Numbered from the stretch's first letter, positions 2,034 to 60,153 are shown. The stretch: DNA of 64,000 nucleotides from Antedon mediterranea (GCF_964355755.1 NC_092673.1:27719001-27783000), one strand, 5' to 3'. A program made the numbers and translations. The notes: a model not told the origin generated them from the sequence alone.

Positions 2034-4738
2034 ATGAACGGAAATAGTACTGGCGGTTACCCACGAGAACTCTTGAAGGATAAATCTGATTTGACGGAGC
2101 GCATAACATGTGGTGTCTGTGATCTCATCCTAAGGGATGTGGTCCAACATGAATGTGGACATCGTTTCTGCAGCTCTTGTGCTGAAGCATTACATAGGTA
2201 AAATCGGTTCTCGTTTAATTTGATGTTAATTACTGTACCAAGCAAAATAGTCTTTTTTATATTTTTGTCAAATTTTTATATAAAACCTACCATTTTTTTT
2301 AAATAGCAAACCTCAGCCACAGTTTTGTCCAAGGTGTCCACCAGATAGCCAAGAAGCTCCAATAAGAAATGTAAGTCTGAAAAAACTATTACGGTACTGT
2401 ATGTTCACGATAATGGCGGCCAAATATAACTGAGATTGGGTCTTCTCATATCTTTCTAATCTCTGAAATCACTTTTTGACACTTTTGTTTATTTAGATCT
2501 ATCCCGACTTTGCTGGACGGAAAGAAATTAGGTTATTGCGAGTAAAATGTGTGAATTCTGGATGTCCCTTTGATGGAACCCTTTCTGACTACTTAATAGT
2601 GAGTAATTGTATTTAATAATAAATTCCAGTAAATAATATTTATCTCTTAATAAAATACAATTTTGATATACAATTTGTCTAGCCATTTGTTGTTGTTAAC
2701 CTCTGTATGTTTTGATACAGTATACCAGAAAATTTAAAAAAAACTCATTCATTATTTTAAAAATGCGAGAATTACTTATTTTACATTTGTTTTCCTCCTA
2801 GCATCAAGATTCATGTCAGCATTCAAGGGTAGCTTGTGCAGCCTGTGACAAACACATGAAGCGTGTAGAGCTGGAGAATCACAGTTTGAAAGATTGTACA
2901 GAACGTACAATAACTTGCCGTTGGTGTAACAGAGAGTTGATTCATCGGAACATGAAAGTAAATAATGAGATATACAGTATATATATCATTTTATAAAGTG
3001 TAATAGACTTTCATTTTATCTCTACTATTCAACAACAAAAAATGAATGTTTACTTTTTTTTTACAGCAACACAACAGTGTGTGCCCTAAGTTGGAAATTC
3101 TTTGTGAAGTTTGCAAAAAATCAAAGTTGCCAAGAAATGAGGTTGGCTTTTACAGTTTTTCTCAATTTGTCATTAATTAATGTGGTTGAATTTTTTAAAA
3201 ATAATATGAAGATAATTTCTTATGCAGCACTGAAAATGTTTAGATGATTTATAACTAAATACTTTATTTTGCTAATAGAGTAATCTCAAATCAAACTTTT
3301 AAGTTTATTTAGTTGGATGATTAGTTTTTTTTGTGTTAATATTAAAAGATAAAGCTGCATCAAGACCCAGAAAATGGAGACTGCCCTCGGCGTAAAAGAT
3401 GTTGTAAATTTCGAAGGGTTGGCTGTGAGTTTACAGTAAGTATTAAGTTAGAGTTTTATATTATTATTACAATGATAACACTAACTATTTCATAAAATTA
3501 AAACGTTATTTAAAAAATAATCTATTGTTTTGATGAACTTTATTTTTAATATGTAGGCTCCACAGGAGCAGATGCCAGGACACTTGAAAAACAACCAACA
3601 AGAACACATGAATCTGTTACTGGATGACAACATCAATATGAGAACAGAACTGGAGTTTACGAAAAAGAAAATGGAAAAGTATGAATCCATGGAATTGGGG
3701 GAGAAAGGTGCCTCAGCCCTACACTTTGATAACCCAGAAGAAATAGTTAAGATGGTTGTGAAGAACTTAAAACAGAATGGTATTGTAATGGAAAATCATG
3801 AAATAGACTCCTTTAAATCACTTGACATAAATTCAGACAATGGGGGTGCTGGAGCAAGGAAAAAAGTTATGAATATAAACCAGAATGGGAGTTTGAAGGA
3901 AGTTGATGTAAAGAAAGTGACATCTTCAAAATCTTCAGAAATTAGAGAGTTGAAAACTATGGTCCAGAACAATAGTCAGAAGATTAAATCTGTGAAGGAA
4001 ACTCAGGCAATTTTGTTGAAGAAGAATGAAATATTTCATGATGCTCTGGATGTTCTTAACACTGAAATGGATAATGCTGGTCAGAGGACAGTAAACATCC
4101 TTAAAGAGGTAGAAAAGGTAAAGACATCAGTTGAAGAGACAACAAAAAATCTCAAAGCAGTTGATCAAGCAATGGCTGTAAAAAATGTGGTAATAACAGA
4201 ACAGTTCCTGCAGATCAAAAGTCTTGAGAATACATCATATAATGGAATACTTGTCTGGAAGATACCTAACATTAGTCAAAACAGAAGAGATGCCATCAGT
4301 GGAAAGCAGACATCAATTTATTCACCATATTTCTTTACAAGCCGTTATGGTTATCGTGTTTGTTGCAGGATTTACCTAAACGGTGATGGCATGGGAAAGG
4401 GAACCCACATCTCAATATTCTTTGTCATCATGAAAGGCGCAAATGATGCTCTTCTCCAGTGGCCATTTCGAAACAAAGTCAACTTTGTCTTGCTAGATCA
4501 GAACAATCGGGAACACATCATTGATGGATTTCGACCAGATGAAACCAGTAGCTCTTTTCGGAGACCAACCAGTGACATGAATATTGCATCTGGATGTCCG
4601 CTGTTCATCTCAATGTCTGAGCTTGAGGCTAGTCCTAATGCATACATCAAAGATGACACGATGTTTATCAAGGTCATTGTAGACATGTCTGATGTTCAAG
4701 GCCAGCATAGTCTTATTAAAAAAACCTTTAAAACTTGA
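2034..4738 (+). CDS. TRAF3-like RING/TRAF zinc finger/MATH adaptor, copy 1
   Basis: TNF receptor-associated factor, a cytoplasmic adaptor and probable E3 ubiquitin ligase in TNFR/Toll-type signalling to NF-kB and JNK. Seven exons: 2034-2197, 2307-2370, 2497-2598, 2802-2957, 3067-3141, 3349-3435 and 3557-4738. All junctions keep frame and give 609 residues. The C3HC4 RING is complete (C26, C29, C41, H43, C46, C49, C62, C65). Exons 3-6 (77-216) carry Cys/His-rich TRAF-type zinc fingers. Residues about 230-440 look like coiled coil. A MATH/TRAF-C domain (about 445-600) contains YLNGDGMGKGTH and WPFRNKV and resembles vertebrate TRAF3. The start was chosen by comparison with copy 2 (shared STGGYPRELL); an in-frame ATG at 1938 lies before a likely 5' UTR acceptor (CTACAG). 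TRAF2-like is the alternative assignment. Confidence 0.93.
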
Positions 4739-7595: not shown

Positions 7596-9998
7596 ATGGA
7601 TAGTATTAGTACTGGCGGTTACCCTCGAGAACTCTTAAAGAATAAATCAGATTTAACCGAGCGCATAACATGTGGTGTCTGTGATCTCATCCTAAGGGAT
7701 GTCGTACAACATGAATGTGGACATCGTTTCTGCAGCTCTTGTGCTGAAGCATTACAAAAGTAAGTCGGGTCTAAAATAATATTATTTATCAGGCATAGTA
7801 GAAGACCTATCTATAAGATAGTGATTTTTTAGTGTTGAAAATTTATTTTGTTTGTTTTAACAGCAAACCTCAGCCACAGTTTTGTCCAAGGTGTCCACCA
7901 GACAGTCTAGAAGCTCCGATAAGAAATGTAAGTGTGTAAAAATAATGTAAGACAACAAACATAATTTCAAGTGAACTGTGGAAACCACACCACTATTCAG
8001 GGGACACCTATTGTACCCTAAATTAGTAGTATTATACATCTAAATATATTGGGTCTTGACTATCCTTGTTGCGTCACACCAATACCATTATTATGGTACA
8101 GATTGGTATCTTTTTTTTAAAATCACTGTTTGGGACTTATTTTATTTTATAGATCTATCCGGACTTTGCTGGACGGAAAGAAGTTCGGTTGTTGCGAGTA
8201 AGATGTGTGAATTCTGGATGTACTTTTGATGGAACCCTTTCGGACTACTTAAAAGTGAGTAATTGAATAATAAATTAAATATTTATCTTTTGTACAATTT
8301 TAAACACTAGTATTACTAATTTTACATTTGTTTTCCTCCTAGCATAAAGATTCATGTCAGCATTCAAGGGTAGCTTGTGCAGCCTGTGACAAACACATGA
8401 AACGTGTAGAGCTGGAGAATCACAGTTTGAAAGATTGTACAGAACGTACAATAACTTGCCGTTGGTGTAACAGAGAGTTGATGCATCGAAACATGAAAGT
8501 AAATTGAGATTAAAATTGTATATGATAAAATAATATGCTTTCATTTCGTCTTTACTCTTCAATCAATTTTTTATAAAAAATTTAATGTTTACTTTTTTAT
8601 TACAGCAACACAACAGTGTGTGCCCTAAGTTGGAAATTCTTTGTGACGTTTGCAAAAAATCAAAGTTGCCAAGAGATGAGGTTGGCTTTTACAGTTTTTC
8701 TCAATCTGACATTAATTAAGTAATGTGGTTGAATTTTTCTTAAATAATATCAACACAATTTCTTATGCAGCACTACTGAAAATGTTTAGATGATGTATAA
8801 TTTTAAAATACTTTATTTCGCTAATGGTGTAATCTCAAATCAATATTTCAGTTTATTTAGTTGGATGATTAGTTTTGTTGTTAATATTAAAAGATAATGC
8901 TGCATCAAGACCCAGAAAATGGAGACTGCCCTCGGCGTAAAAGATGTTGTAAATTTCGAAGGGTTGGCTGTGAGTTTACAGTAAGTATTAAGTTAGAGTT
9001 TTATATTATTATTACAATGATAACACTAACTATTTCATAAAATTAAAACGTTATTTAAAAAATAATCTATTGTTTTAATGAACTTTATTTTTAATGTGTA
9101 GGCTCCACAGGAGCAGATGCCAGGACACTTGAAAAACAACCAACAAGAACACATGAATCTGTTACTGGATGACAACATCAATATGAGAACAGAACTGGAG
9201 TTTACGAAAAAGAAATTGGAAAAGTATGAATCCATGGAATTGGGGGAGAAAGGTGCCTCAGCCCTACACATTGATAACCGAGAAGAAATAGTTAAGATGG
9301 TTGTGAAGAACTTAAAACAGAATGGTATTGTAATGGAAAAGTATGAAATAGACAGTGGTGGTGCTGGAGGAGACCTTCAAGAGGTAGAAAAGGTAAAGAC
9401 ATCAGTTGAAGAGACGACAAAACATCTCAAAGCAATTGATCAAGCAATGGCTGTAAAAAATGTGGTAATAACAGAACAGTTCCTGCAGATCAAAAGTCTT
9501 GAGAATACATCATATAATGGAATGCTTGTCTGGAAGATACCTAACATTAGTCAAAACAGAAGAGATGCCATCAGTGGAAAGCAGACATCAATTTATTCAC
9601 CATATTTCTTTACAAGCCGTTATGGTTATCGTGTTTGTTGCAGGATTTACCTAAATGGTGATGGCATGGGAGAGGGAACCCATATCTCAATATTCTTTGT
9701 CATCATGAAAGGTGCAAATGATGCTCTTCTCCAGTGGCCATTTCGAAACAAAATCCTCTTTGTCTTGCTAGACCAGAACAACCAGGAGCACATTATTGAT
9801 GGATTTCGACCAGATGAAACCAGTAGTTCTTTCCGACGACCAATTAGTGACATGAATATTGCAATAGGATGTCCGTTGTTCATCTCAATGTCTGAGCTTG
9901 AGGCTAGTCCTAATGCATACATCAAAGATGACACAATGTTTATCAAGGTCTATGTAGAGTGTCATGGAGGTGAAGGCGACGGAATTCCACATGAATAG
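7596..9998 (+). CDS. TRAF3-like adaptor, copy 2, shortened coiled coil
   Basis: Tandem paralogue of the preceding gene with the same seven-exon structure: 7596-7759, 7864-7927, 8153-8254, 8343-8498, 8606-8680, 8894-8980 and 9102-9998. It gives 514 residues. RING and zinc-finger cysteines are all kept. About 92 residues of the coiled coil are missing from the last exon (the frame passes from EIDS straight to GGAGGDLQEVEKVK), so the MATH domain sits at about 353-508. The C-terminus departs abruptly after MFIKV and ends YVECHGGEGDGIPHE, where copy 1 has the usual TRAF ending. There are no frameshifts and the introns are intact, so it looks functional, but with altered trimerisation length. The ATG lies three bases after a TTTTAG acceptor, implying a 5' UTR intron. 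Confidence 0.92.
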
Positions 9999-33128: not shown

Positions 33129-33905
33129 TCAAAATGCGGCGATCGGCCGTTGGATCGCCTGGAATGCTGATGAAATCCCAGAAACATATGTTGAAATTTT
33201 AGCACCATTATTTTCTGACGATTCTTCCGTAGAAAGTCCTGAGAATCCTGCTTTAAAAATGTTCACCAAACTTGTAATAGATTGTTGGTTTTCGGACATA
33301 TCGTTCTTTGTTGATTGGACAGAACAATCGACTCGTGCTTTCTTTGTATTTGATGTACTACTGTCCGTTTGACTATCTCCCGATGAACACCTTCGTTTCC
33401 GACTACAAGAATTGCAATTTGTATTATTTTCCAAGGTGGATGTTTTGACAACATTGTTCGAAATATCAAGAAGTGCTGGTCTGTTGTTGTCTGTGGTACA
33501 TTCCTCTTTTACTTCGCCTCTTAATTCAGGCTGTATAACAACCATTTCAAATTCCTTGTCTGTACCGGTTGTCGGTCGTGACTCAGCGTCCAAGCTATTG
33601 TTTCCCGCCGTTGGCGTCAGGTCACGCGTTGTTTGTGACGCTTCCACTATAGCATTTTCTTCATGATTATCAAAGTTCTCTTCTTCAGCACCTTTGGTCT
33701 CCCGTTTGGTCTCTATTGTCGTTTCCATATAAGACGTTGCTCTAGACATTTTATTGCACATATCCTCGTAATATATTGTCCTTGCCGAATTTAATACACC
33801 GGCTACAAGTAGATTCTTTCGTAGGCATATTCCTCCTTTCTGGTGTCGAGAACCGGCAATTTTTTTGAGTGATACACTGATCAATCTTTGTGCTTCTAAC
33901 GCCAT
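33129..33905 (-). CDS. IER2/IER5-family immediate early response protein
   Basis: Single-exon gene of 258 residues. The N-terminal block [17 protein letters not shown] and [15 protein letters not shown]...[10 protein letters not shown] match the conserved N-terminal domain of IER2/IER5/IER5L. The C-terminus [13 protein letters not shown] and final IAAF match the conserved end. Vertebrate members are intronless, nuclear, serum- or stress-induced regulators that act with PP2A and HSF1. The middle is Ser/Thr/Glu-rich and low-complexity, with a basic KKARVD that may be part of a nuclear signal. The start at 33905 was chosen because family similarity begins at MALEAQRL; an in-frame ATG 45 bases upstream adds residues without family support. 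IER5 is the best match, but IER2 cannot be excluded. Confidence 0.88.
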
Positions 33906-34113
33906 TATTCCTGTTATCGTCTGCTCAAGGAAATTACAAAAGTGTGTCAATAAAAAGCAAGGCAGGTGTCGACCAATAAATCCTTTATGTAACCTTCTAA
34001 AGTATTCAATATAAATATAGTAATCAACAACGATATAAAAACGTTGTTACTACTGTCGACACGGCGTGATGAATAACCGTTGTTTGACAAGGAAATTAGT
34101 ATATGGTGGTCAA

Positions 34114-46126: not shown

Positions 46127-46316
46127 AGATTGCCTACCCGTCGGACTGTTTGTATTTGAATAAATGAATCGGTGTCGTCTCTTCTTCCACCGTATTGTTA
46201 AATTGAATTGATTACAATGTTTGTATGTTTAAAAGGCCTTATTATTTCCTCAATTCAAAGAAAATAATGTTTAAATAGTATAGGTAACCAGGCTACAGCT
46301 GGTAGTGTATGTAACT

Positions 46317-46380
46317 GGAAATTCCAACTTCTTAACTTCCTGGAACTATTTTGATCATCAATGCAATGCAAAGTATATAA
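46317..46380 (+). promoter_or_regulatory. Predicted promoter of ERI1-like copy 1
   Basis: GGAAATTCC at 46317-46325, then TATATAA at 46374-46380. A possible UTR donor (AAAAAG|GTATGA) lies at 46490, pairing with the TTTTTTTAG acceptor that touches the ATG at 46754. The arrangement is repeated in front of the other copies. Confidence 0.5.
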
Positions 46381-46753
46381 CGTCGTCAATGACAGAGATT
46401 CGTTGACAACGGTGTGTCGTACTCAACAAGTCAACGGCTTTATCTGATCAGAAACCTTTAGGCCTACACAACATTCTTTGTTAAAAAAGGTATGATAACT
46501 TTAGTCTATATAATAATGTTGGCTCAATTTAATTTATTTAAAGTATCTTTGAATTATATGTATCGATAGGAACCGGAAACTGTTTTACTTGATGTATGCA
46601 TGTTTTATTAACAGGTTTTAGCCTATAATGTCTGACCACTACCTCCAATATTAGAGATCAAGTGGACATCCCGAATTTGTTTAACTTTACCGTGAGCAAA
46701 TTATATTATTATATTATCAATTATTGTTCTTAAATCTTATTTTGTTTTTTTAG

Positions 46754-49040
46754 ATGGTGCGCTATTTTATGGTTATTGATCTTGAGGCGACGTGTGTTTA
46801 CCCTCGACAACATGACTGGCAGCCGGAGATAATCGAGATAGGGGCGATTATCCTGGATTCAAAGCTAAACGAGGTACCTTAGGCCTACAACAAAACATCA
46901 TAGCCTACTAATATAGTTTACTTTACTACTTTACTAATGTTAACACAATTATTATGCCCTAAAGCTCTGTCTACACTATCAAACTTGATCCCAAAAAAAT
47001 GTGATGTGGACATGGACATGATGATTTCATTCACTACCATATTTGAGCATATCACTACCATGTTTGGGCATGTCACATTTTTTGACAAACTAGTTTAATA
47101 CGGTAGTGTAGACAGAGCTGTAAACCTTGATATGGATTTAAATGCCAGTTCTGTCGTTACAGATCAGTGAATTTCAGGAGTTTGTTCAGCCAGTGGTTAA
47201 TTCAACGCTGTCATCGTTCTGTCTAGACCTTACGAAAATTACACAGGTAATTGCACCTACCAGCATAACACAGGTAGACTTAGCTGAATCACTGATGTGA
47301 ATGAATCAATGATATGTATAAACAAACGTACTGACTAGAATGAACGAATAAAATAACAACGTTACTAAAATTATAAATAATCATGACTTAATTAGAAGTA
47401 ATTTGTAAAAAATAAATTGAAATAAATAATAAAATAGAATAAATAAATAGACTTACTAAAGTGCTGATGTGGTACTCGGTAACACTGGCGCTTAACATAG
47501 TCATACTAGTTCTATTTTTTTGTTTCCTGCCACTTAGGCTACTTTGTGGTTGTTCTTTGTTGTTGTGTTTGTGTTGTTTTTTGTCAATAAATAATACGAA
47601 TAAAGCACTTCTCTATTTGATCCAGGCTAACGTTGATAGAGCTGATACCTTCCCAGACGTCTACGAACGAATGTTGACATGGATGAGAAGTAACGGATTG
47701 AATACCACATCTAGATCAGGAAACTTTACACTCGTCACGGATGGGTTAGTAGATTAGACTTTACTTAGGCCCTACTAATGATTGGTTGGTGGTGACTTAC
47801 CTGAAAAACACGTTGCATTCGTCGTCATTGTACGATGCAAGATTAAAATTATTGTAATCTTTGTACTGTACATTTATATTATTGCATTTATTAAAATCAT
47901 ACAAAAGTAAATACTCCTCAGGGTCAATTATATCATCGTAAAGTGCGACATTTAATGCATCTTGTACGAACGCCATGATGATTGTTTACAAACATATCAA
48001 GCCGAGCGTGACGCGACGTCGTCGTCCCATCGCGTATCGTAAACGAACTTTTTAAAGTGGACGACAACCAGCTTTTCACGCATCAGCGCGCACTGGTAAT
48101 CCGTCGTCGTCCCTCTCCGTCGTGTTTCGTAAACTCTCTAGTATTAAAGTAGAACTCCTCCTTTGGACACTGATATTCAGGAGACACCGCGATTAAGGGG
48201 ACGTTCCCACGCGTGCAACGGACTTGTCACCTTTTGACCAACCTCTATTCGAGGACACCCCTATTAAATAGAAACTTTGTTGGGTGGGTCCCGAAGGCGT
48301 TCCTTTAAATAGACGTTCTAATATTTTGTAATACTGTATTATGTTATGATATAAGCACACTAATAGTTAAGCTTGGTTCCCACTAGAGACGCAACGTACG
48401 TAACGCTACGTAAGTGATTTGACCAATCACAAGCGATGGATTATTCGAACAGTTGCTTGTCATTGGTCAACTCGCTTGCTTTTGCATCTACGTCCTTGTG
48501 GGAACCAAGATTTAGTTTATAATGAAGTAGCACCAATGTAACCGAAACGTAATAATATAAACTTTATTGAATTGCCATAGAGCAGACAATTATTTGTATT
48601 TTTCAGAATTTTTGATTGTAATCAATATATACAACACCAGTGTAAACTCTGCAAGTTGGAATACCCGGAATGGGCTAAAAGTTTCAGCAACATAAAATCA
48701 CATTTTATGTACGTTCTGCGCGCGCGCAAAGCTAACGGCAGAACGCACAGCATGAGTGAAATGACGGAAAAGCTCGGTACGTAATAATAATAATGATAAC
48801 AATAATAGTTTTAATTATTTAATCTTAGCAAATCATTTCATTACCATAATTTGACTGGTTGAAATGTAGTTATTTTTTATTTTAGGAATTGAAATGGACG
48901 GTCAGTTACACAGAGCTTTAGATGATGCTAAGATTATCGTCAAGATAATGAAAGGTATTCGAGGAAGACGTCCGGGGTTCCCGTTCAATACCAATGCAAC
49001 ATACAGGCCTGATTGGACATTGAGGTTTTTCGACGACTAA
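46754..49040 (+). CDS. ERI1-like 3'-5' exoribonuclease, copy 1 (intact)
   Basis: DEDDh-family RNA exonuclease of the ERI1/ERI2/ERI3 group, which trims 3' ends of histone mRNA, rRNA or small RNAs. Five exons: 46754-46873, 47163-47246, 47626-47744, 48607-48776 and 48886-49040. All phases match and give 215 residues. The catalytic set is complete: D9 and E11 in VIDLEAT, D107 in LVTDG, H173 and D178 in HRALDDAK. There is no SAP domain as in ERI1 (349 residues in human), so the protein is just the nuclease core, closer in layout to ERI2/ERI3. An AG acceptor abuts the ATG, so a 5' UTR exon, or an upstream coding exon, is implied. Intron 1 holds a family A MITE; intron 3 holds a family B MITE and a transposase exon. 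Confidence 0.92.
46961..47120. mobile_element. MITE family A (ERI1-like copy 1, intron 1)
   Basis: AAAGCTCTGTCTACACTATCA at the left and TAGTGTAGACAGAGCTG at the right. It is inverted internally relative to most copies. Confidence 0.85.
47801..47976 (-). pseudogene. Harbinger-like transposase first exon (fragment)
   Basis: On the minus strand an ATG at 47976 opens 58 codons (MAFVQDALNVALYDD..., then ASYNDDECNVFF) and runs into a perfect donor, AG|GTAAGT, at 47800. The DDEC-x-x-FFR end resembles the N-terminal region of HARBI1-like transposases and their derivatives (...DDEC...FRF). No downstream exon can exist on this strand, because the next sequence is ERI1-like exon 3. It is a truncated element in intron 3. 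The family call is by pattern, moderate. Confidence 0.45.
48369..48514. mobile_element. Family B foldback (ERI1-like copy 1, intron 3)
   Basis: AAGCTTGGTTCCCACTAGAG at the left and ACGTCCTTGTGGGAACCAAG at the right, with the inner GACCAATCACAAGCGATGG and CTTGTCATTGGTCAACTCG. A clean copy of about 145 bp. Confidence 0.85.
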
Positions 49041-49343
49041 GCAGAATGTGTTTGCGGTAACACCACGTAATACGACAACCCGTTTACGTTCTTATGTATT
49101 GATCCAGAAAAGTATTTTCGGTATATCCATTATCTCGATCATCATGTGGACCCAGATGTAATTGTTTTCATATATTATATGTTGTTTTTATTTTATGTAA
49201 GAACTATCACATACATTTTGAGTTATGTAAGATTACGGTCTTTGCACCTTAAAAATTACTTGTAAAAACGGAATGCAGTTATGCGGATTTGTATATTAAG
49301 TTTACGGATTAGTTTCCTTTTGTTTTCCACAATTTATTTTGTT

Positions 49344-49349
49344 AATAAA
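49344..49349 (+). terminator. Putative polyadenylation signal, ERI1-like copy 1
   Basis: AATAAA in GTTAATAAATC, about 300 bp after the stop codon. Confidence 0.4.
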
Positions 49350-49779
49350 TCTTATTATTATTATTATTGTTATTACTGATATTATTTTATTTATTTTATT
49401 GGCATGTGCGTCACTACAGGAGCATGACATACCCGCAACTCCTGAAACGAGAAGAAAATTTTAAACACTGAATGTGAAATTTAATAGTACTGTAAAAATA
49501 GAGTATTACACTTTGTTTTATGTATATAATATTATAAGTAATAAACAAATGCCTGCGGTAACACCATAAAAATAGTTATAATAACAATCTTTAGACAACT
49601 ATTTACGTGTGTACATATTTGTTATATTTAAAAACAATTACAGTGCTCTATTAGATTTTAAAATTGTGATTTTTTTTTTGTGGACGAACCGATTATTAAT
49701 TATAATTCGTTACCATTCCATTACATAAATTCATGATTGTTTTATTTAAGACTACATTTTAATATACAATAATAATGTG

Positions 49780-49945
49780 ATGTTGACATGACGTCATGTT
49801 TATTTGTTGCCAATGATGCGTTGGTGTTGGAAAATCGAAGGAGATGCTGAGCTGCTCGATGACGTCATCAAGTTCGACATACGCAGTGTGACATTGGACG
49901 GATGATATCATCCGAATTGTAGTTTGTGATTGGTCAAACTATTTG
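49780..49945. repeat. Duplicated 3' flank, partner at 53820-53990
   Basis: TTGACATGACGTCATGTTTATT, GATGCGTTGGTGTTGG, GAGCTGCTCGATGACGTCA and AAGTTCGACATACGCAG match 53820-53990 collinearly. The repeated block lies about 750 bp after the stop of copy 1 and 300 bp after the stop of copy 2, so the tandem duplication included the 3' flank. Confidence 0.8.
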
Positions 49946-50209
49946 TGTTCCGCGTACGTACGCCATTGTCTTAATTTAATCTCCATTAATGTTTTATCAA
50001 TACATACGCCTACATATTGATCGTTTATCATATAATTAGTAACTTGTTAATTTCTCTGGAAATTCCAAAGAGTGCAGTAATAATATATTATACGGTTTTT
50101 CTAGATTATTCACTTTAATCATTTCATGCGTCATTTTAACGTTTTATAAAACATTTTGTTACTAAATTGATATCTTATCGCAATGTAGTTCCCACTTTTG
50201 ACGCAGTAT

Positions 50210-50960
50210 TAAAGCCCCATTCCCTACGTTTTTTAGATCTAATTTAAGATCACAAACTATATTTAATGTAAAAATAATACTATATGGTCCTATTGCGATA
50301 ACTTTTTTCGTCTTTAAACGGTTAAAAATGTGAAAAATAAGTCGATTCTAATAATTATAGCGGCCCGCTATAAATCCCAAAATGAATTGCGCGCGGATGG
50401 ATATTTTTGTTTTTCACCTGTAATTCGCCCACTTTTCGATCGATCGTGAGGCCAAAACAAATGGAAGACTCCTAACTTTTCAGCGAAAATACCGGGTTTT
50501 CCCCAATTTGTATCAACGGAGTCTGGCAAAAATAGAAAGACAATTAATGCAGCAACTATACAACGTCAGGCTAGGTATATAGGCCCGCGTACGATGTTCG
50601 TACGTTACCGATGTTTACCAGCTAGGCCTACAAAACTAAGCCTAGCTAGGCTAGGCCTTAAGCCGATTTTCCACTAGGCGAATTTGTTCGCGCGAATCGA
50701 AGGCGTCAGCTAATACGCATGCGTAGAGAAGGATTTGGAAGACGTAAACATGAATACACATGCGTACGACGCGTGGATTTACGGTAATCGCGTCGCAAGT
50801 TTTACCAATCACGACACGATGGATCATGCAAACTGTCGCTTGTGATTGTCACGTTGTCGCGCGCGTTAACTCATTTCTGTGCGTCCGAGTGGAAACGCGC
50901 AATTTACTTGCGTTGCGCTAACGTCTTTGTGCGTTGGATTTCGTCGTTGAGACCACCAAA
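50210..50960. other. Intergenic block with GC-rich mixed repeats
   Basis: Starts AAAGCCCCATTCCCTACG, later contains GCGCGCGGATGG and a TAGGCCTAGC-rich stretch (50575-50660). The last part (50660-50960) has family B-like words (GATTTTCCACTAGGCG, ACCAATCACGACACGATGG, TTGCGTTGCGCTAACG). Probably mosaic transposon debris. No gene is supported. Confidence 0.45.
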
Positions 50961-51201
50961 CTTTATCCATCCATCGCTATATTGTGGGAAATTGCTGATG
51001 TCCTGTATGTTTACAATTGTATACTACGTCATGACTGACTTTGTACCAACTTGCTTATCGCTATAATAACTCTTTACATTTATTATTAAATTAACATTTA
51101 TAAAAAGAAACTGAGTGTAAAACTCCAAATACCAGTAGTATTTGTTTATTTTGATTGTTTATTTTAGTAGTAGGCCTAACCAACCTGGAAAAATCCAAAT
51201 T

Positions 51202-51285
51202 GGAATTTCCAAAATGATTGTGTAATGTTTTAATTATTATAGAATCATTTAGGTTATCGATGATGAAAGTCAGAGGACTATAAAT
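51202..51285 (+). promoter_or_regulatory. Predicted promoter of ERI1-like copy 2
   Basis: GGAATTTCC at 51202-51210, TCGATGATGAAAG at about 51258 and a TATA-like CTATAAAT at 51278-51285, 281 bp before the start codon. A further GGAAATTCC lies at 50058-50066. Confidence 0.45.
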
Positions 51286-51565
51286 TAGGTTGTGAATCGT
51301 GCGACGAGTCATTTTCATTTCTTGATTGTGTCACCTCTAAACAGAGTTTAGTCTCTTACATTACGGTATACAGTATAGACTAATAAATACAAAGTAAGGT
51401 AGGCTATACATGCACACAATAACATTGTAGAATTAGGTAGAATTGGTTTGTTACATAGGCTACAGCAATTGCTTAATAGAAATACATTCATTTTAATTTA
51501 TACTGCACATCTTAAGGGTTATTATTTTTGTTATTAATTAATTTACAATGTCTTATTTTGTTTAG

Positions 51566-53526
51566 ATGGCGTGCTACTTTTTGGTTATTGATCTGGAGGC
51601 GACGTGTATTTACCCTCGACAACAGGACTGGGACGCGGAGATAATTGAAATAGGGGCGGTTATACTGGATTCGAGACTGAAACAAGTAGGCATTGGACTT
51701 GTTTGTTTGATTTTAAGCATTTAGATCTTGTAATTAAAATCATACTTGGTACCATATGACTCGCCGTCACCAACCCACCCGTCCTTCTCCTAACATCTAT
51801 TTTCGAAAATGTATTACCAGTGTGATTCTTATTTCAGATCAGTGAATTTCAGGAGTTTGTTAAGCCAGTTGTAAACCCGATATTATCGCCGTATTGTCTG
51901 GATCTTTTGAAGATCACTCAGGTAAGAAATGAACATTTTATCCATACTTTATCCATACTCCCCGTCTCTTAGTGGTAGATTTAAAAAAAAAAGATAAAGG
52001 CCCGAGTCCCGTGTTCATTCTCTGAACGTAGGGAAATAAGATGTAAGAGGAGCTCATTGTACTAACCTCGGCATTGGTGATGTACCTCATAGGTACTCGT
52101 TTACAGCTGAGTGGACTGGGAGTTGTCGGGAATTGAACCCGGGTCTCTCTGTATGACAGTTTGTTTGTTTGTTTTTTATTGATTTCCACACAAAATGAAT
52201 ATGATAATTAAGTAACAATAGACATATTATATATAAGAAAGATGTGTGGCTGGTGGGCAAATAAGTTCAAAGAACTTTAAGGCTTACCCACCACAAAAGA
52301 TACAATAAACATAATCAAGTATGACGAGTAAGAATATAAAATAAGAAGTAAAAAGACATAAATAAAATAAAAAATTAAAAAGTAAATAAATTTAAAAAAA
52401 ACAATAGTATAAATTATTAAATAAATGAATCATAAGTGTTTAAACTTTAACATTTGCATAAGTAATAATAAGTTACGTAGTATTTAAGTTCAGTTAAGTG
52501 TCCTAACCACTCGGTCTAGATAATACAAATTTTAAAAAGTTAATCAAAATCAAATGTGTTTTCTTGAGGTTGGTATTTAACATTTTATTCTGCAAGGGTG
52601 ATGTTGATACCGCAGATACATTTCTGACGGTTTATGAACGGATGTTGACGTGGATGGAAGCGAACGGATTAAAGCTCACTGGCTACCAAAACTTTGTTCT
52701 CGTCACAGACGGGTAAGCTTAAGGTTTATCTATTAACTTAGTCCTAGCCCAACCGCAATTACACCTAAATAAATACATTAATAATATTGACCGAATAATG
52801 TGACCATTTTGTAACATCATCAGTTGAAAAAAAATTATTAAATGATGATAGAAATTCAATTTTCATTTTGAGTCTATTTTACTAAAGTAGGCCTAGATAC
52901 ATGGATTAAACGTGTTATGCTATGTTCATAATGTTGTGTTTTGTTTAATGTGATGGTACAATGTTATGTTTATGTAATGTTGTATGCTATAGTTTTTGCT
53001 GACTCTTGTGGTAACCCACCGGAATGTTTTTAATTTGAATATATTTGTTCTTTTTTAAGAATCTTTGATTGTAATCAGTGGATACGTAATCAATGCAAAA
53101 TCTCTGAAATTGAATATCCGGGATGGGCTAAAAGCTTTAGCAACATAAAGAAACACTTTATGTATGCTCTGCGCACGCGCAAAGCTGACCGCAGCTCCTT
53201 TACCATCAGTGAAATGACGGAGAAGCTAGGTAGGTCTAATGCTCTGTCTACACTATCAAACTTTATGTGATGTGCCCATATATGGACATGATGATGTCAT
53301 ATCACTACCATATTTGGAAAATAAAAAATATAGTGCGGTGTCTATATTTGCTAAACGTATTTGTTTATTTATAGGAATTAGGATAGACGGTCAGCTACAC
53401 AGAGCTTTAGATGATGCCAAGATTGTCGTGAAGATTATGAAAAGCATCAGAGGAAAACGTTCAAATTTTCGTTTCGATGTGAATGCTCAACTAAAGCGTG
53501 AATGGACCATGACGTTTTACGAATAA
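51566..53526 (+). CDS. ERI1-like 3'-5' exoribonuclease, copy 2 (intact)
   Basis: Exons 51566-51685, 51838-51921, 52597-52712, 53060-53229 and 53375-53526, all in phase, give 213 residues. Catalytic residues are kept: D9, E11, D106 (LVTDG), H172 and D177 (HRALDDAK). It uses AAG acceptors at exons 3 and 4 where the other copies use CAG/TAG. Differences from copy 1 are spread along the protein, heaviest near the C-terminus (KRSNFRFDVNAQLKREWTM). As in copy 1 there is no SAP domain, and a TTTAG acceptor touches the ATG. Intron 2 contains a tRNA-derived SINE broken by another insertion; intron 4 a partial MITE. Likely functional. Confidence 0.92.
51965..52161 (-). mobile_element. tRNA-derived SINE, body and B box
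   Basis: On the minus strand GACCCGGGTTCAATTCCCG is a pol III B box in tRNA context, followed by ACTCAGCTGTAAACGAGTACC and a tail toward 51980. Its A-box part is found at 52496-52524 on the other side of a 329-bp insertion. Confidence 0.75.
52162..52490 (-). mobile_element. Retroelement inserted inside the SINE
   Basis: CAGTT borders both sides (52157-52161 and 52491-52495), and removing the insert restores a continuous tRNA-like head. The plus strand starts with GTTTGTTTGTTTTTTATTG, so an A-rich tail (AATAAAAAACAAACAAAC) lies on the minus strand. The body contains inverted words around GTGGCTGGTGGGCAAATAAG and CTTACCCACCAC. No ORF. Confidence 0.7.
52496..52524 (-). mobile_element. tRNA-derived SINE, A-box head
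   Basis: The minus strand reads TAGACCGAGTGGTTAGGACA, a tRNA 5' half with A box. It continues at 52161 after the insertion. Together they give a SINE head of normal spacing. Confidence 0.75.
53241..53320. mobile_element. MITE family A, partial (ERI1-like copy 2, intron 4)
   Basis: GCTCTGTCTACACTATCAAAC, then GATGTGCCCATATATGGACATGATG and TATCACTACCATATTTGG. The right end is lost. Confidence 0.75.
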
Positions 53527-53990
53527 AATATTTGCGGTAACACCACGTAATAAAGATCGTTCGACGTTTCGATTAATGTTTGTTAGTGCCTCGATCTAAT
53601 AAACTCTGGTCGGACAAATAGTCGTTTACTAACTTTATACGTATATATATATATAGTCAGTCTAGAAGTATTATGCCTAATTATAGGCTGGCATACATAT
53701 ATAATATATCATAGTATTGTATTGTATAAATAGTGTATTAAATTGATTACTGGAGTACAGTACTAATTGAAATTGTTTTATTGATGACTACATTCTAATA
53801 TCAAATGATAAATAAATGTGATGTTGACATGACGTCATGTTTATTGATTGCCGATGATGCATTGGTGTTGGGAAATCGAGGGAGATTCTGAGCTCCTCGA
53901 TGACGTCAACAAGTTCGACATACGCAGCATGAAATTGGATTGGATGATTTCATTCGAATTGTAGTTTATGATTGGTCAGCACCTGTTAAA

Positions 53991-54980
53991 TAGACCGGGC
54001 GCCCGGAAGATTTATTCATGTGAAAAGATACAAAAGGTTTGATGATGTAGTTAGGTGCGTATTAGGGCGAGATGCAATATTCGACATTGCTGCCGGGTCA
54101 CAGCCTGTACATGGGGCCTGTGGGGATCATAACATAGGGGGGTAAAAATGCATTTATTCATGTGAAGCGATACAAGGATAAACTTTTTTGGATATCATTC
54201 GCAGTGGGCTATACTAACTAACTAGTAGCTATACTACTAATGATTACATCACCAATGACAGCAACTTTATCCTGTACGGGGCGCCAAACAGCAACATTTT
54301 AGGGCCACGCCCAAATGGGTTTATTCATGTGAAGCGATACAAGGTTGAATCTTTTTTTAATGGCAGCAATACATATTGGGGATGAAAAAAAACACCAATG
54401 ACAGCAACTTTATCCTGTACATAAGCTCAGACAGCAGCCCGAAAGGTCTCTTTATTGTTTTAGCATTCTACTGTGTATTTATTGTCAGTTCGAGTCCGTA
54501 TCACGTATTTCTAACTCAGCTGAACGCCATAAGACGACATACGCGCCGAGTATATAGCCGAATAAGGGGAAACTGCGGACCTTTCGTGCTGCTGTCTGAG
54601 CTTATGTACAGGATAAAGTTGCTGTCATTGGTGTTTTTTTCATCCCCAATATGTATTGCTGCCATTAAAAAAAGATTCAACATTGTATCGCTTCACATGA
54701 ATAAACCAATTTGGGCGTGGCCCTAAAATGTTGCTGTTTGGCGCCCCGTACAGGATAAAGTCGCTGTCATTGGTGATGTAATCATTAGTAGCCCACTGCG
54801 AATGATATCCAAATAAAATTTTATCCTTGTATCGCTTCACATGAATAAATGCATTTTGCAAATGCATCATTGACCCGGCAGCAATGTCGAATATTGCATC
54901 TCGCCCTAATACGCACCTAACTACATCATCAAACCTTTTGTATCTTTTCACATGAATAAATCTTCCTGGCGCCCGGTCTA
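53991..54980. mobile_element. Large foldback element, 990 bp
   Basis: Terminal ends TAGACCGGGCGCCCGGAAGA and TCTTCCTGGCGCCCGGTCTA. Arms of about 400-450 bp (to about 54447 and from about 54577) are near-perfect reverse complements around a 125-bp centre. Each arm contains repeats of TTTATTCATGTGAAGCGATAC. The minus strand has an open frame of 103 codons (54640-54951), but as part of a palindrome it is not good evidence for a gene. It lies between ERI1-like copies 2 and 3. Confidence 0.85.
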
Positions 54981-54986
54981 GAAGTT

Positions 54987-55068
54987 GGAAATTCCAAAAT
55001 GGTGAAATTTTACTAATTAAAACTATTTTTAATTATTGATGATGAAATACATTATCAATATATATTAT
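54987..55068 (+). promoter_or_regulatory. Predicted promoter of ERI1-like copy 3
   Basis: GGAAATTCC at 54987-54995, TATTGATGATGAAATA at about 55036 and a TATA-like ATATATATTATAG at about 55057-55070. An imperfect second site (GGAAATTCT) lies at 55100-55108. The foldback element ends only 6 bp upstream of the kB-like site. Confidence 0.45.
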
Positions 55069-55276
55069 AGACCATGACGGTGGTGATTTTTCATACGTTG
55101 GAAATTCTCAACTAAACAAGTCAACTCAACAATTTGAAAGTATGTTATTATAATGTTTTGTCCAAATAGATGTAAATAGGAGATGTATTTTAATAGGAGA
55201 TTTTAAAATACAACTCGTCCTTATTATTGGGTCTTTCTTAAATTTTTTGAATAATGTACAGTATGTATTTTTTTAG

Positions 55277-56569
55277 ATGGCGCGTTATTTTTTGGTTATT
55301 GATCTGGAGGCGACGTGTGTTTACCCGCGACAACATACTGGCAGCCGGAGATAATCGAGATAGGGGCGATTATACTGGATTCGAGACTGAATCAAGTAGG
55401 CATTGGATTTCTATTTTGTTTGAAAAATATCTCATTAAGAGAAGACAAAACGCTTGTAATATGTTCCATGACCACTACCCCTTTTTCAGCCACTTTTTTA
55501 AACGTTTTTTTTTATAAGGTGACCGATGCCTCATCGTATGTATGTGATTTTATTTCAGATCAGTGAATTTCAAGAGTTCGTTAAGCCAGTTGTAAACCCG
55601 ACATTGTCGCCGTATTGTCTGGATCTTTTGAAGATCACTCAGGTAAATAAGCCTATTTTTAAAAACTATGTCATTTACATCTTTAAAAATAATCAAAAGA
55701 AAACTGGTAAATCAAAAAGGGCCATAAATACACTAAAACTGGGTTTTTTCAAAGTTGAAAAGTTTACAATTGTTTTTGGTTCAGGCTGATGTTGAAAATG
55801 CGGATACATTTCCTGCGGTTTACGGACGTATGGTGTCGTGGATGGAAGCAAACAGATTGAGGCTCACTTGTTACCAAAACTTTGTCCTAGTCACTGACGG
55901 GTACGTAATGCCATAAGGCCTACTGTTTATAGTCGTCATTTTTTCATCAATATTTGGTAAATAACAATATTTTGGTGTTGTTTTTAGAATCTTTGATTGT
56001 AACCAGTATATACGCAATCAATGCAAACTGTCTGGTTTGGAGTATCCAATATGGGCTAAAAGTTTTAGCAACATAAAAAAACACTTTATGTTTGCTCTGC
56101 GCACGCGCAAAACTGATGGCAGATCATACAGCATGAGTGAAATGACAGAAACATTGGGTATGTCGTCACTATTTATAATTATCATTATTGCGAAGTGAAA
56201 GAATAATGGTCCTGTTTTAGTATAGTAAGGCCTAAATTACTTTAGACCAATTAAATATGACAGCAGGCTATATATTTCAACGTGTCTTTTTATTGGGACC
56301 TCGACTCTTGCTGGTTATTATGGTTATCATTATTATTACTAAAAAAATATTACGATTGATTGAATAAAGTTTACAAATTTACAAGAATTATAATATAAAT
56401 GTGTTTTGTCATTATAGGAATTAGAATGGACGGTCAGTTACACAGAGCTTTAGATGATGCCAAGATTGTCGTCAAGATAATGAAAGGTGTTCGAAGGAAG
56501 CGCCCGGGGTTTGACTTCAATGCGAATGCACAGTTAAAGAGCAATTGGACTCTTAAGTTTTTCGACTAG
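55277..56569 (+). pseudogene. ERI1-like exoribonuclease, copy 3, one-base frameshift
   Basis: Exons 55277-55395, 55559-55642, 55785-55900, 55988-56157 and 56418-56569. Exon 1 is 119 bases where copies 1 and 2 have 120: CAACATACTGG lacks a G found in CAACATGACTGG, near 55336. The frame from MARYFLVIDLEAT therefore meets a stop (TAA) at once. Everything after the lesion is intact: exons 2-5 are in phase, with LVTDG, HRALDDAK and a normal C-terminus. All splice sites are good. It is either a very recent pseudogene, a sequencing error or a polymorphism. No alternative in-frame start upstream restores VIDLEAT together with the rest. Confidence 0.8.
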
Positions 56570-57649
56570 GTTTGCGGTAACACGTAAAAAAAACGTATCG
56601 ATGGTTCGATTAATAATCATTTGTATATTAATCTGAATGAAATGTATCACATTTTCTAATTGGACACATCGTTCTATTTATTACTAGTGGCAAAATAAAA
56701 TTATAAACCCCAGCAGGATTTGAACCATTTAAAGCTAATACATTAAGCAAAAAAATGTATCTTTCAACATGCGCCCTCTGTGGCAATATGTTGCCAAGTA
56801 CTACTTCACTCAGTTTCTGAGTGCTTTCATTATTATATTGTGCGTTATATTAGAGCTACTTGGGGGTAAATGTGAGTTCACACGCGAATGACACACTGTC
56901 CATCGTGCAATTCAACAGTGTCTTTATTTCTGGTATCAGGTTTAATTTTGGATATTGGAAATTATTGGTAAACTATTCATTGTGGTGTAGGGTCTGTATC
57001 CCAGATAGGCGCGGCCTCTTCTTTAAAACGAATGATTTCGGTACACCATGATAATAGTAAAATGTAAAGTCGGGAAACTCAACAGTTCTTTTTATAACTA
57101 TACGTGGTGTACCGCAAACTATACCGTATATCAACATAACAGTTACGGGGAAAATGGCTGTTACAGAGTGACATAAGAGTTGTCAAAACAATAGGCTATC
57201 TGTATGACTATCTGATAACTTAACCATATAAAACTCATAGAAAGTGGGAAGCTTTTTGCCATGTTCCCCTGGACTGAAAAGGTGTTGTTGTTACTCATTG
57301 CTGATATGGAATTAATTAATACAGGGTCTATTTATTTTTATAATATTATTACCGTAATTACGGTAAACAATGATCGGTTACAGGAGAGTTATTACGTAAT
57401 ATATAATAAAACATAATAATATTATAATAATCTGTCTTGTCATTTGAAATTGTTAGAAACAATAATTAGATTTTTAGCAGTTTATCAGGTAGATACATCT
57501 ATCTAAAAATACGCTGTTGACTATATCTCGATGCATTAATGAATTTGTGGACTTGTATCTGAGATTTATTGCTCAGTATTTTTAAATCTGCTGATCCGGA
57601 AAAATGAGATATTAATGGCGAAAACAATTTCATAATGATTGTGATTCCA

Positions 57650-57790
57650 CTTACAACGGCGTTTTCCTACGACGCAAAGCAAGGACGTGCGCAAAGTTAG
57701 GACTTGCGCAAAGTAAGGACGTGCGCGAAGTATTTCACAATATGGCATCATCGGAACTTCTCGTGATTAGTCAACTCGCGTTGTGCTATG
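57650..57790. mobile_element. Family B foldback, degraded
   Basis: GACGCAAAGCAAGGACGTGCG is repeated three times in short form, then CTCGTGATTAGTCAACTCG. The right terminal arm is missing. Confidence 0.5.
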
Positions 57791-57889
57791 TTGTTGTCAA
57801 CTTTCGTCATTTATGGAATCTATTTATAACTTTCAAATAGAGGCGGGCCTATTCATGTCGTTTGTTTATTTATTAGTATTGTTGGTAAT

Positions 57890-57978
57890 CAAGGTTGGTA
57901 TAAGGTTGAAAGAATGTTCTTTCATACCCTGAAGGGTCGATAAAGAAATAAATAAATCATTGTCATTGTCATTGTCAA
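57890..57978 (+). mobile_element. LINE-like 3' tail
   Basis: CATACCCTGAAGGGTCGATA followed by AAGAAATAAATAAATC and ATTGTC repeats. A typical retroelement end. No coding sequence. Confidence 0.4.
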
Positions 57979-57993
57979 CCCATATAAGCCTAT

Positions 57994-58050
57994 GGAAATT
58001 CCCAAATTATTAGCATTGATGAGGAAATAATATAGAGTACGGTATATAAA
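57994..58050 (+). promoter_or_regulatory. Predicted promoter of ERI1-like copy 4
   Basis: GGAAATTCC at 57994-58002, GCATTGATGAGGAAATAAT at about 58013 and TATATAAA at 58043-58050. A donor-like AAG|GTAGGT at 58144 could pair with the acceptor at the ATG. The layout survives although the coding part is dead. Confidence 0.45.
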
Positions 58051-58241
58051 TTGACTATCGATTGGATATTTTACACTGTTGATAAATACTCATCAATCAA
58101 GTTTATCTGAACAGAAGTTTATTACATTATTATAGAATAAGAAGGTAGGTTATGTAAACAATTGTATTGGGAAAATTTTCAATCTAACTCATCTTCTAAA
58201 TGAAAGATGATCTGAGCAGATTGTATTATGTTTTCTCAGAA

Positions 58242-58386
58242 GCGTGGTTCTCACTAGAGACTCACAAAATGACGTACGCGCAACGCAAGCGAATTTACTA
58301 ATGACAAGCCACTGTTCGAATAATCAATGGTCAAATCACCTATGTTGCGTTACGTCCTTGCGTTGCTAGTAGGAAACCAAGCTTTA
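58242..58386. mobile_element. Family B foldback in the 5' UTR intron of copy 4
   Basis: GCGTGGTTCTCACTAGAGACT at the left and TGCGTTGCTAGTAGGAAACCA at the right. It ends 35 bp before the start codon of ERI1-like copy 4. Confidence 0.75.
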
Positions 58387-58420
58387 GGCCTAATGAAATC
58401 TACAATGTCTTTTTGTTTAG

Positions 58421-59793
58421 ATGGTTCGCTACAAGTTTCTAGTTATTGATCTGGAGGCGACGTGTAATCAACCCCCGCAGCCACCAGACATGGGACCCGG
58501 AGATTTATATTGAGATCGGGGCAGTCTTACTGGATTCAAGACTGAATCAAGTAAGACTTCAAACATTTTAAAGTAAAACAAGCATAAAGCACAGGTTCTT
58601 TCCATTATGACGGACGGCCCCCTCCCACTTACCATTCTTAGAATGATTTTTTCTTCAGATAAGTGAATTTCCGGAGTTCGTTAAGCCAGTTGTAAATCCG
58701 CAATTGTCGCCGTTTTGTCTGGATCTTTTGACGATTTATTACACAGGTAAGCCAAGGCATTGTATATCGCTGTGTATATAAACTAAACAATGCTAGCATT
58801 TTTCGATATATTCATTATGTTTGTCGTTTGAAATCACGACAATGTATATAGTTTTGATACCACTGCATTATACGTTTCCAAATTTATTACCATTTGTTTA
58901 GACACTTCTTTCTTTTCCAGTCTGTTTTAATTTCATAAATTATTTGTAAATTGAAAGATATGCTTTTTAATTTATTGCTAAGTTATTTGAAAGAAATAAA
59001 TGTTAACTTTATTGATTGATTTGTACATTGGTCATCTTTTTTCAGGATGACGTTGATAATGCGGATACATTTCCAGAGGTTTATAGTCAGATGTTGGCGT
59101 GGATGAGAAGTAGCGGATTGCTCCTCGAAGACAAAAACTTCATTCTAGTCACAGACGGGTAATGATCTAACTCTAGATTCAGATGCATGTCTTAAATATT
59201 ATGTTTGAATTTAAATATTCGTTAAATTTCATGAAATAATTAAAAGTAAGTTATTAATAATTTATATCAATTGATTTATTATTGTATCGTAAAATTATTA
59301 TAATTTTTCTTACCCTTTTTTCTCTCCAGACTCTTTGATTGTAACCAGTGGTTACAACATCAATGCAAACTCTCTGAAATCGAATATCCGGGATGGGCTA
59401 AAAGTTTTAGCAACATAAAAAAACACTTTATGTATGCTGTGCGCACGCGCAAATCTGACCGCAGCTCTTTTACCATAAGTGCAATGACAAAGAGGCTAGG
59501 TATGTGATAATGTCTTCTTGTAGATGCATGATATCATCGCTTCAAAAGATTAGGTATAGAGTTTTTCTATCCGCTGATAATAGACACCAAACTATTACTA
59601 AATGAAATGTTTGCTAAAGTAACGTAGAGGTTTTATTTAATTTTCGGAATTGAAATGGACGGCCAGCTACACAGAGCTTTAGATGATGCCAAGATTATCG
59701 TCAAGATAAGAAAGGTATTCGAGGAAAAATTCGGAGTTTCCGTTCAGTACCAATGAGCGATTCCAGCGGAAATGGACATTAAAGTTGTTCTAA
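58421..59793 (+). pseudogene. ERI1-like exoribonuclease, copy 4 (pseudogene)
   Basis: Exon relics: 58421-58550, 58659-58746, 59046-59158, 59330-59499 and about 59647-59793. Four independent defects are visible. Exon 1 has 10 extra bases, putting GDLY and a stop after the DLEAT motif. Exon 2 has 4 extra bases (TTATTACACAG where others have ATCACTCAG). The exon 5 acceptor AG is CG (TTTTCG before GAATTG). One base is missing in AAGATAAGAAAGG near 59707, leading to an early stop. Exons 3 and 4 remain well conserved (FILVTDG, EYPGWAKSFSNIKKHF). It cannot make the nuclease. Confidence 0.88.
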
Positions 59794-60153
59794 TAAATAT
59801 TTTTCGGTAAACACATTTAGGCCTAGAGTATAATATAATAATTATAATTATAGGCCTAATTGCTCATGTTGTGGGCCCAATCTTCATGATCCGGCCAGCA
59901 ATCGTCATCTAGGCCTAGTATCATAATATTTCATGACTAATGTAAATCTTATTGAATAAAATTTAAAAATTTGGTACATTTTTAAGTTGATTTACTTTTT
60001 AAGATTGTATTCTAAGTTTAAACTTTTGGTAGTATTAATACATAAATTACAGTATGAATAAAATTGTGACGTTTTGATGATGATGATGGATGATGGTGTA
60101 GTGATGGATTTGCGATATGATTATAGGTGGCGCACTCTACAAAAACATTCAAA

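Follow-up and report, generated by a model that had tools for sequence, protein, structure and literature searches.

Nucleases of the ERI1 type restrain RNA interference and also take part in the processing of histone mRNA and 5.8S rRNA. The window analysed here, a stretch of 64,000 nucleotides of Antedon mediterranea DNA (C4:27719001-27783000, in a genome of 354 Mb), raises the question of whether this genome holds a further kind of ERI-like nuclease beside ERI1, ERI2 and ERI3, and how such genes might be used. An earlier note had described four head-to-tail ERI1-like copies with a common exon plan. Gene models rebuilt from the sequence with their splice sites agree, giving four five-exon genes on one plan between 46754 and 59793, with exon lengths across the four of about 120, 84, 113–119, 170 and 147–155 nt and identical phases:

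46754-49040, plus strand: copy 1, intact, predicted DEDDh exonuclease of 215 aa without a SAP domain; exons 46754-46873, 47163-47246, 47626-47744, 48607-48776 and 48886-49040
51566-53526, plus strand: copy 2, intact, 213 aa; exons 51566-51685, 51838-51921, 52597-52712, 53060-53229 and 53375-53526
55277-56569, plus strand: copy 3, exon 1 short of a single nucleotide near 55337, the rest intact; exons 55277-55395, 55559-55642, 55785-55900, 55988-56157 and 56418-56569
58421-59793, plus strand: copy 4, a pseudogene with indels in exons 1, 2 and 5 and a lost exon-5 acceptor

Copies 1 and 2 are intact, as had been claimed: their reading frames are open, every splice border is AG/GT, and D9, E11, D110, H172 and D177 are invariant when they are aligned with the human ERI1, ERI2 and ERI3 and with those of the same genome. 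The RNase_T profile (PF00929) scores them at 99.5 and 90.4 bits against a cut-off of 24 (E=3.9e-28 and 2.4e-25), and the nearest solved structure to the array proteins is human ERI1 (E=2.3e-37), so that chance resemblance is excluded and the two are assigned, by profile, to the DEDDh 3'-5' exonuclease class. Judging from the family, they would encode active exoribonucleases that trim RNA 3' ends, with D9, E11, D110 and D177 binding two metal ions and with H172 as the base. The deletion in copy 3 is its one lesion, as the note had it, and the "at least four" given for copy 4 are found as four frame-breaking indel regions (exon 1, net +10 nt; exon 2, +4; exon 5, -1 and -1) together with a change of the exon-5 acceptor from AG to CG.

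Collapse or haplotype duplication in the assembly, which would have made the array an artefact, is ruled out by the divergence of the copies, whose exons are 66–95% identical and whose introns cannot be aligned, no similarity being detectable in any of the four. A genome-wide search found strong matches to the array copies only within the array itself. Between copies 2 and 3 lies a long foldback of about 1 kb (53991-54980), with arms 98–99% complementary, which is probably a mobile foldback element.

The proposed history of selection followed by loss is supported by the substitution rates. With lesion codons masked, dN/dS is 0.21 for copy 1 versus copy 2 (the comparison that had been suggested, at dS 0.96), 0.18 for 1 versus 3 and 0.22 for 2 versus 3, and 0.36–0.41 for copy 4 versus copies 2 and 3. 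These values indicate that copies 1–3 have long been under purifying constraint and that copy 4, which is also broken, is relaxed. As copy 3 shows no relaxation, its lesion is best read as an error, or else as a change that is recent or polymorphic. The exons are unlike in their site patterns (permutation p 0.026), which suggests segment exchange between copies.

The array copies are not the ordinary ERI1, ERI2 and ERI3 orthologues, since all three are present elsewhere in the genome: ERI1, SAP exons included, on the same contig (C4:77-80 kb), ERI2 at C1:20.15 Mb and ERI3 at C6:25.31 Mb. The local expansion of a bare nuclease core that had been proposed is thus distinct from all of them. Human ERI1 (3'hExo; PDB 1w0h, 4l8r, 1zbu) shares the DEDDh core, with 31–35% identity over the nuclease; the array differs from ERI1 in lacking SAP, in being tandem, in an additional intron before IEMDG and in the flanking motifs, EIIEIGA against EIIEFP and HRALDD against HCGLDD. 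Further structure matches were to ERI3 (7e-24), CRN-4 (1e-19) and ERI2 (5e-15). ERI2/Snipper also has the DEDDh core, but its identity is 27% and it has no intron before xxEF; insect members of that subclass likewise lack SAP (PMC2395250). ERI3/Pint1 (PRNPIP) has the same core at 32% identity, but its intron positions differ. Caenorhabditis elegans CRN-4 is, like the array, an ERI-like nuclease of DEDDh type that has no N-terminal region of the ERI1 kind (PMC2395250), but it is very divergent.

Gene structure points to ERI1, because three of the array's four coding introns are identical to those of the same genome's ERI1 in position and phase (two in phase 0, one before xxEF and one after ITQ, and a third in phase 2, within the G of DG). 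Exact sharing with ERI2 of this genome is limited to the ITQ intron, and comparison with its ERI3 brought out no shared intron position. The array genes appear to lack the SAP domain that marks ERI1, to judge from an ATG that follows an acceptor, a promoter-like element no more than 450 bp away and the absence of any SAP-like frame upstream. By score and by the three introns, the array is nearest ERI1, and we read it as an ancient duplicate, lacking SAP, of either ERI1 or ERI1's ancestor.

Trees were built from the array copies, human and own-genome ERI1, ERI2 and ERI3, CRN-4 and environmental relatives; the rows for human ERI2 and ERI3 agree with solved structures, the ERI1 row agrees with the structure-search alignment, and no conclusion rests on the CRN-4 row. 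The array copies form a single clade (100/98-99) placed outside the ERI1/2/3 group. The ERI2 and ERI3 ortholog pairs are starred clades from which the array is excluded, and we take it to be neither an ERI2 (Snipper) nor an ERI3 orthologue. The best tree puts the array outside ERI1/2/3, and in AU tests a grouping with ERI1 was not rejected (p 0.35); nor was a grouping with CRN-4 (p 0.35).

A plainer account would be that the family is an ordinary invertebrate group of ERI1-like paralogues that exists already in many phyla, the array being just a local change of copy number without a role of its own. The nuclease core is standard, the gene structure is ERI1-like, and published surveys have found several Eri-1-like subclasses in animals (PMC2395250). 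That survey names just three metazoan subclasses, however, each of which is separately present here, and the array makes its own clade in the trees; we hold this account to be unlikely. The array, as judged from its gene models, is a fourth kind of ERI-like gene in this genome, SAP-less, beside ERI1, ERI2 and ERI3.

The placement outside ERI1/2/3, together with motifs of the DLEATC, EIIEIGA and HRALDDA type that the array has in common with bacterial and viral relatives, could also be accounted for by horizontal transfer of a bacterial or viral KapD-like exonuclease that gained introns later. Bacterial KapD is a 3' exoribonuclease (PMC11736430). It has no introns, however, and transfer would not explain those of the array, three of which match ERI1 exactly. 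The best scores are to human ERI1, the KapD scores of 62 and 63 bits fall far below the NCBIfam equivalog cut-off of 169, and a 98/98 branch separates the array, together with the animal ERI proteins, CRN-4 and a single viral contig, from the remaining environmental rows. A single-protein search of viral contigs gave no close relative of the array, and an alignment search gave distant relatives only, which served as tree rows. Transfer is thus very improbable, and the KapD-like motifs may be ancestral states retained in a family that would derive from ERI1 or its intron-bearing ancestor. Without SAP, its products would act on short or structured RNA ends, minus ERI1's recognition of the histone stem-loop. 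A fourth kind that lacks SAP, is under selection and has expanded in tandem would show, as a natural experiment, how the core works when its RNA-guiding domain is absent.

How the genes might be controlled is suggested first by their upstream regions. The 9-mer GGAAATTCC (as a 10-mer, TGGAAATTCC; either strand) occurs within 500 bp upstream of all four copies, in each case with a TATA-like box 41–69 bp downstream of it:

46317-46325, plus strand: GGAAATTCC of copy 1, TATA-like box at 46374-46380
51202-51210, minus strand: GGAAATTCC of copy 2, TATA-like box at 51279-51285
54987-54995, plus strand: GGAAATTCC of copy 3, TATA-like box at 55059-55065
57994-58002, plus strand: GGAAATTCC of copy 4, TATA-like box at 58043-58050
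46421-46488, plus strand: presumed end of a non-coding first exon of copy 1, which has a block in common with copy 4 (58088-58116)

TGGAAATTCC/GGAAATTCC resembles a kappaB site, as in NF-kappaB/Rel target genes, and with the TATA-like box makes the promoters look inducible. The window contains GGAAATTCC eight times against 0.37 expected, and of 1000 dinucleotide shuffles 4 produced a 9-mer shared by all, none with the GC content of GGAAATTCC; the motif was picked after the promoters had been viewed, and its sharing may partly be inheritance, tandem copies being related. Since an AG acceptor stands immediately before the ATG of every copy, the first exon is expected to be non-coding; for its presumed end in copy 1, AAG|GTATGA and AAG|GTAGGT are candidate donors.

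Genome-wide there are 67 TTGGAAATTCCAA sites against 24 for a reversed control. Genes of the TRIM-like, MYND-DUF4470 and TIR-domain kinds are found close to others of these (C1:36.72 Mb, C11:6.63 Mb, C3:30.77 Mb). That GGAAATTCC/TTGGAAATTCCAA sites mark a common immune-type regulon is only suggestive, because the site clusters have often arisen by recent duplication and reverse transcriptase fragments adjoin some of the sites. Upstream of the array, the window also carries a TRAF-like gene with RING and TRAF/MATH domains and a second TRAF-like copy (together at 1896-2198, 3557-4735 and 9102-9995), the pair lying about 37 kb from the array, as well as a single-exon gene of the immediate early response (IER) family on the minus strand (33132-34046).

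A second indication of control lies just downstream of the coding regions, where the copies carry a short element:

49051-49072, plus strand: 22-nt 3'UTR element TTTGCGGTAACACCACGTAATA of copy 1
49554-49571: partial second TTTGCGGTAACACCACGTAATA site of copy 1
53531-53552, plus strand: 22-nt element of copy 2, identical to that of copy 1
56571-56587, plus strand: the element of copy 3, with a 3-nt deletion
59800-59819: degenerate element of copy 4

In copies 1 and 2 the element stands 4–10 nt past the stop between unrelated flanks, and conservation ends at 22 nt. A search of the 354 Mb at up to 2 mismatches found, as the sole further matches to TTTGCGGTAACACCACGTAATA, the two arms of a hairpin at C10:10405491-10405565, and in the reciprocal search at the same threshold the hairpin arm matched only copies 1 and 2; a reversed-pattern control gave two matches per search at up to 3 mismatches, and by our own estimate about 0.1 is expected at up to 2. 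The hairpin is present once in the genome and has a 32-bp perfect stem, an 11-nt loop and a folding energy of -60 kcal/mol (z -13); its upper arm has no homology to the array beyond 22–24 nt. A strand of its 3' arm would pair with the copy 1 and copy 2 sites at -29.6 kcal/mol, the 1% background being -18.5.

In stem-loop size and stability of fold the hairpin is like a miRNA precursor, and hairpin and 3'UTR sites together are built as would be expected if a miRNA-like precursor had these sites as its targets, the small RNA itself being putative. Its stem, perfect over 32 bp, is unlike those of most conserved animal miRNAs. A perfect let-7 sequence is present in the genome and marks the animal as a bilaterian; no Rfam family was found for the C10 hairpin.

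It is quite possible that no small RNA is made, and that the 22-nt element and the hairpin match only through common origin from a mobile element not yet recognised, or from an inverted duplication that arose by chance. Young foldbacks have perfect stems such as this one, and next to the hairpin are tandem repeats of 325 nt and a frame that has an OTU-like motif. Yet the hairpin is single copy, with no family, the conservation between copies 1 and 2 ends at 22 nt, just past both stops, and the decaying copies lose the element. Genome searches for the 3'UTR element as a mobile-element family likewise gave no family.

The reading that we prefer, with some confidence, is that the array is an old tandem family of SAP-less ERI1-type RNases, inducible, possibly under small-RNA control, and now contracting: ancient in origin, with segments exchanged between copies and present shrinkage, and with mRNAs bearing a site nearly complementary to a small RNA whose source might be the C10 hairpin. 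The use of the genes would be regulated, possibly immune, because of the shared kappaB-like promoter element and the small-RNA-like hairpin matching the 3'UTRs, both of which are indirect indications. A role in RNA silencing or antiviral decay, as the note had suggested, is conjectural. We put forward only as a speculation, and a doubtful one, that these private ERI1-type nucleases, potentially degrading small RNAs, are controlled by their own near-complementary hairpin small RNA in a feedback loop, with kappaB-like induction besides. Were it true, small RNAs would stand in a feedback loop with a nuclease that may destroy them, and the pair of hairpin and 3'UTR site yields a concrete and cheap prediction on small-RNA control of a small-RNA nuclease.

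Two repeats remain to be described. Within the ERI1 of this genome, at C4:78689-79626, a 72-nt tandem repeat of 13 copies duplicates one exon's end and splice donor, so that 13 candidate donors follow one another within a single open frame. Beyond copy 1 of the array there is a further non-coding repeat:

49774-49940, no strand assigned: 167-nt non-coding segment downstream of copy 1, with a 90% repeat at 53815-53978, downstream of copy 2

A genome search found only those two copies of this segment of about 165 nt. Its amino-acid changes are too numerous for constraint, and a coding exon was accordingly rejected. The first copy holds two TGACGTCA palindromes, and the segment is 90% conserved although the array introns are unalignable.
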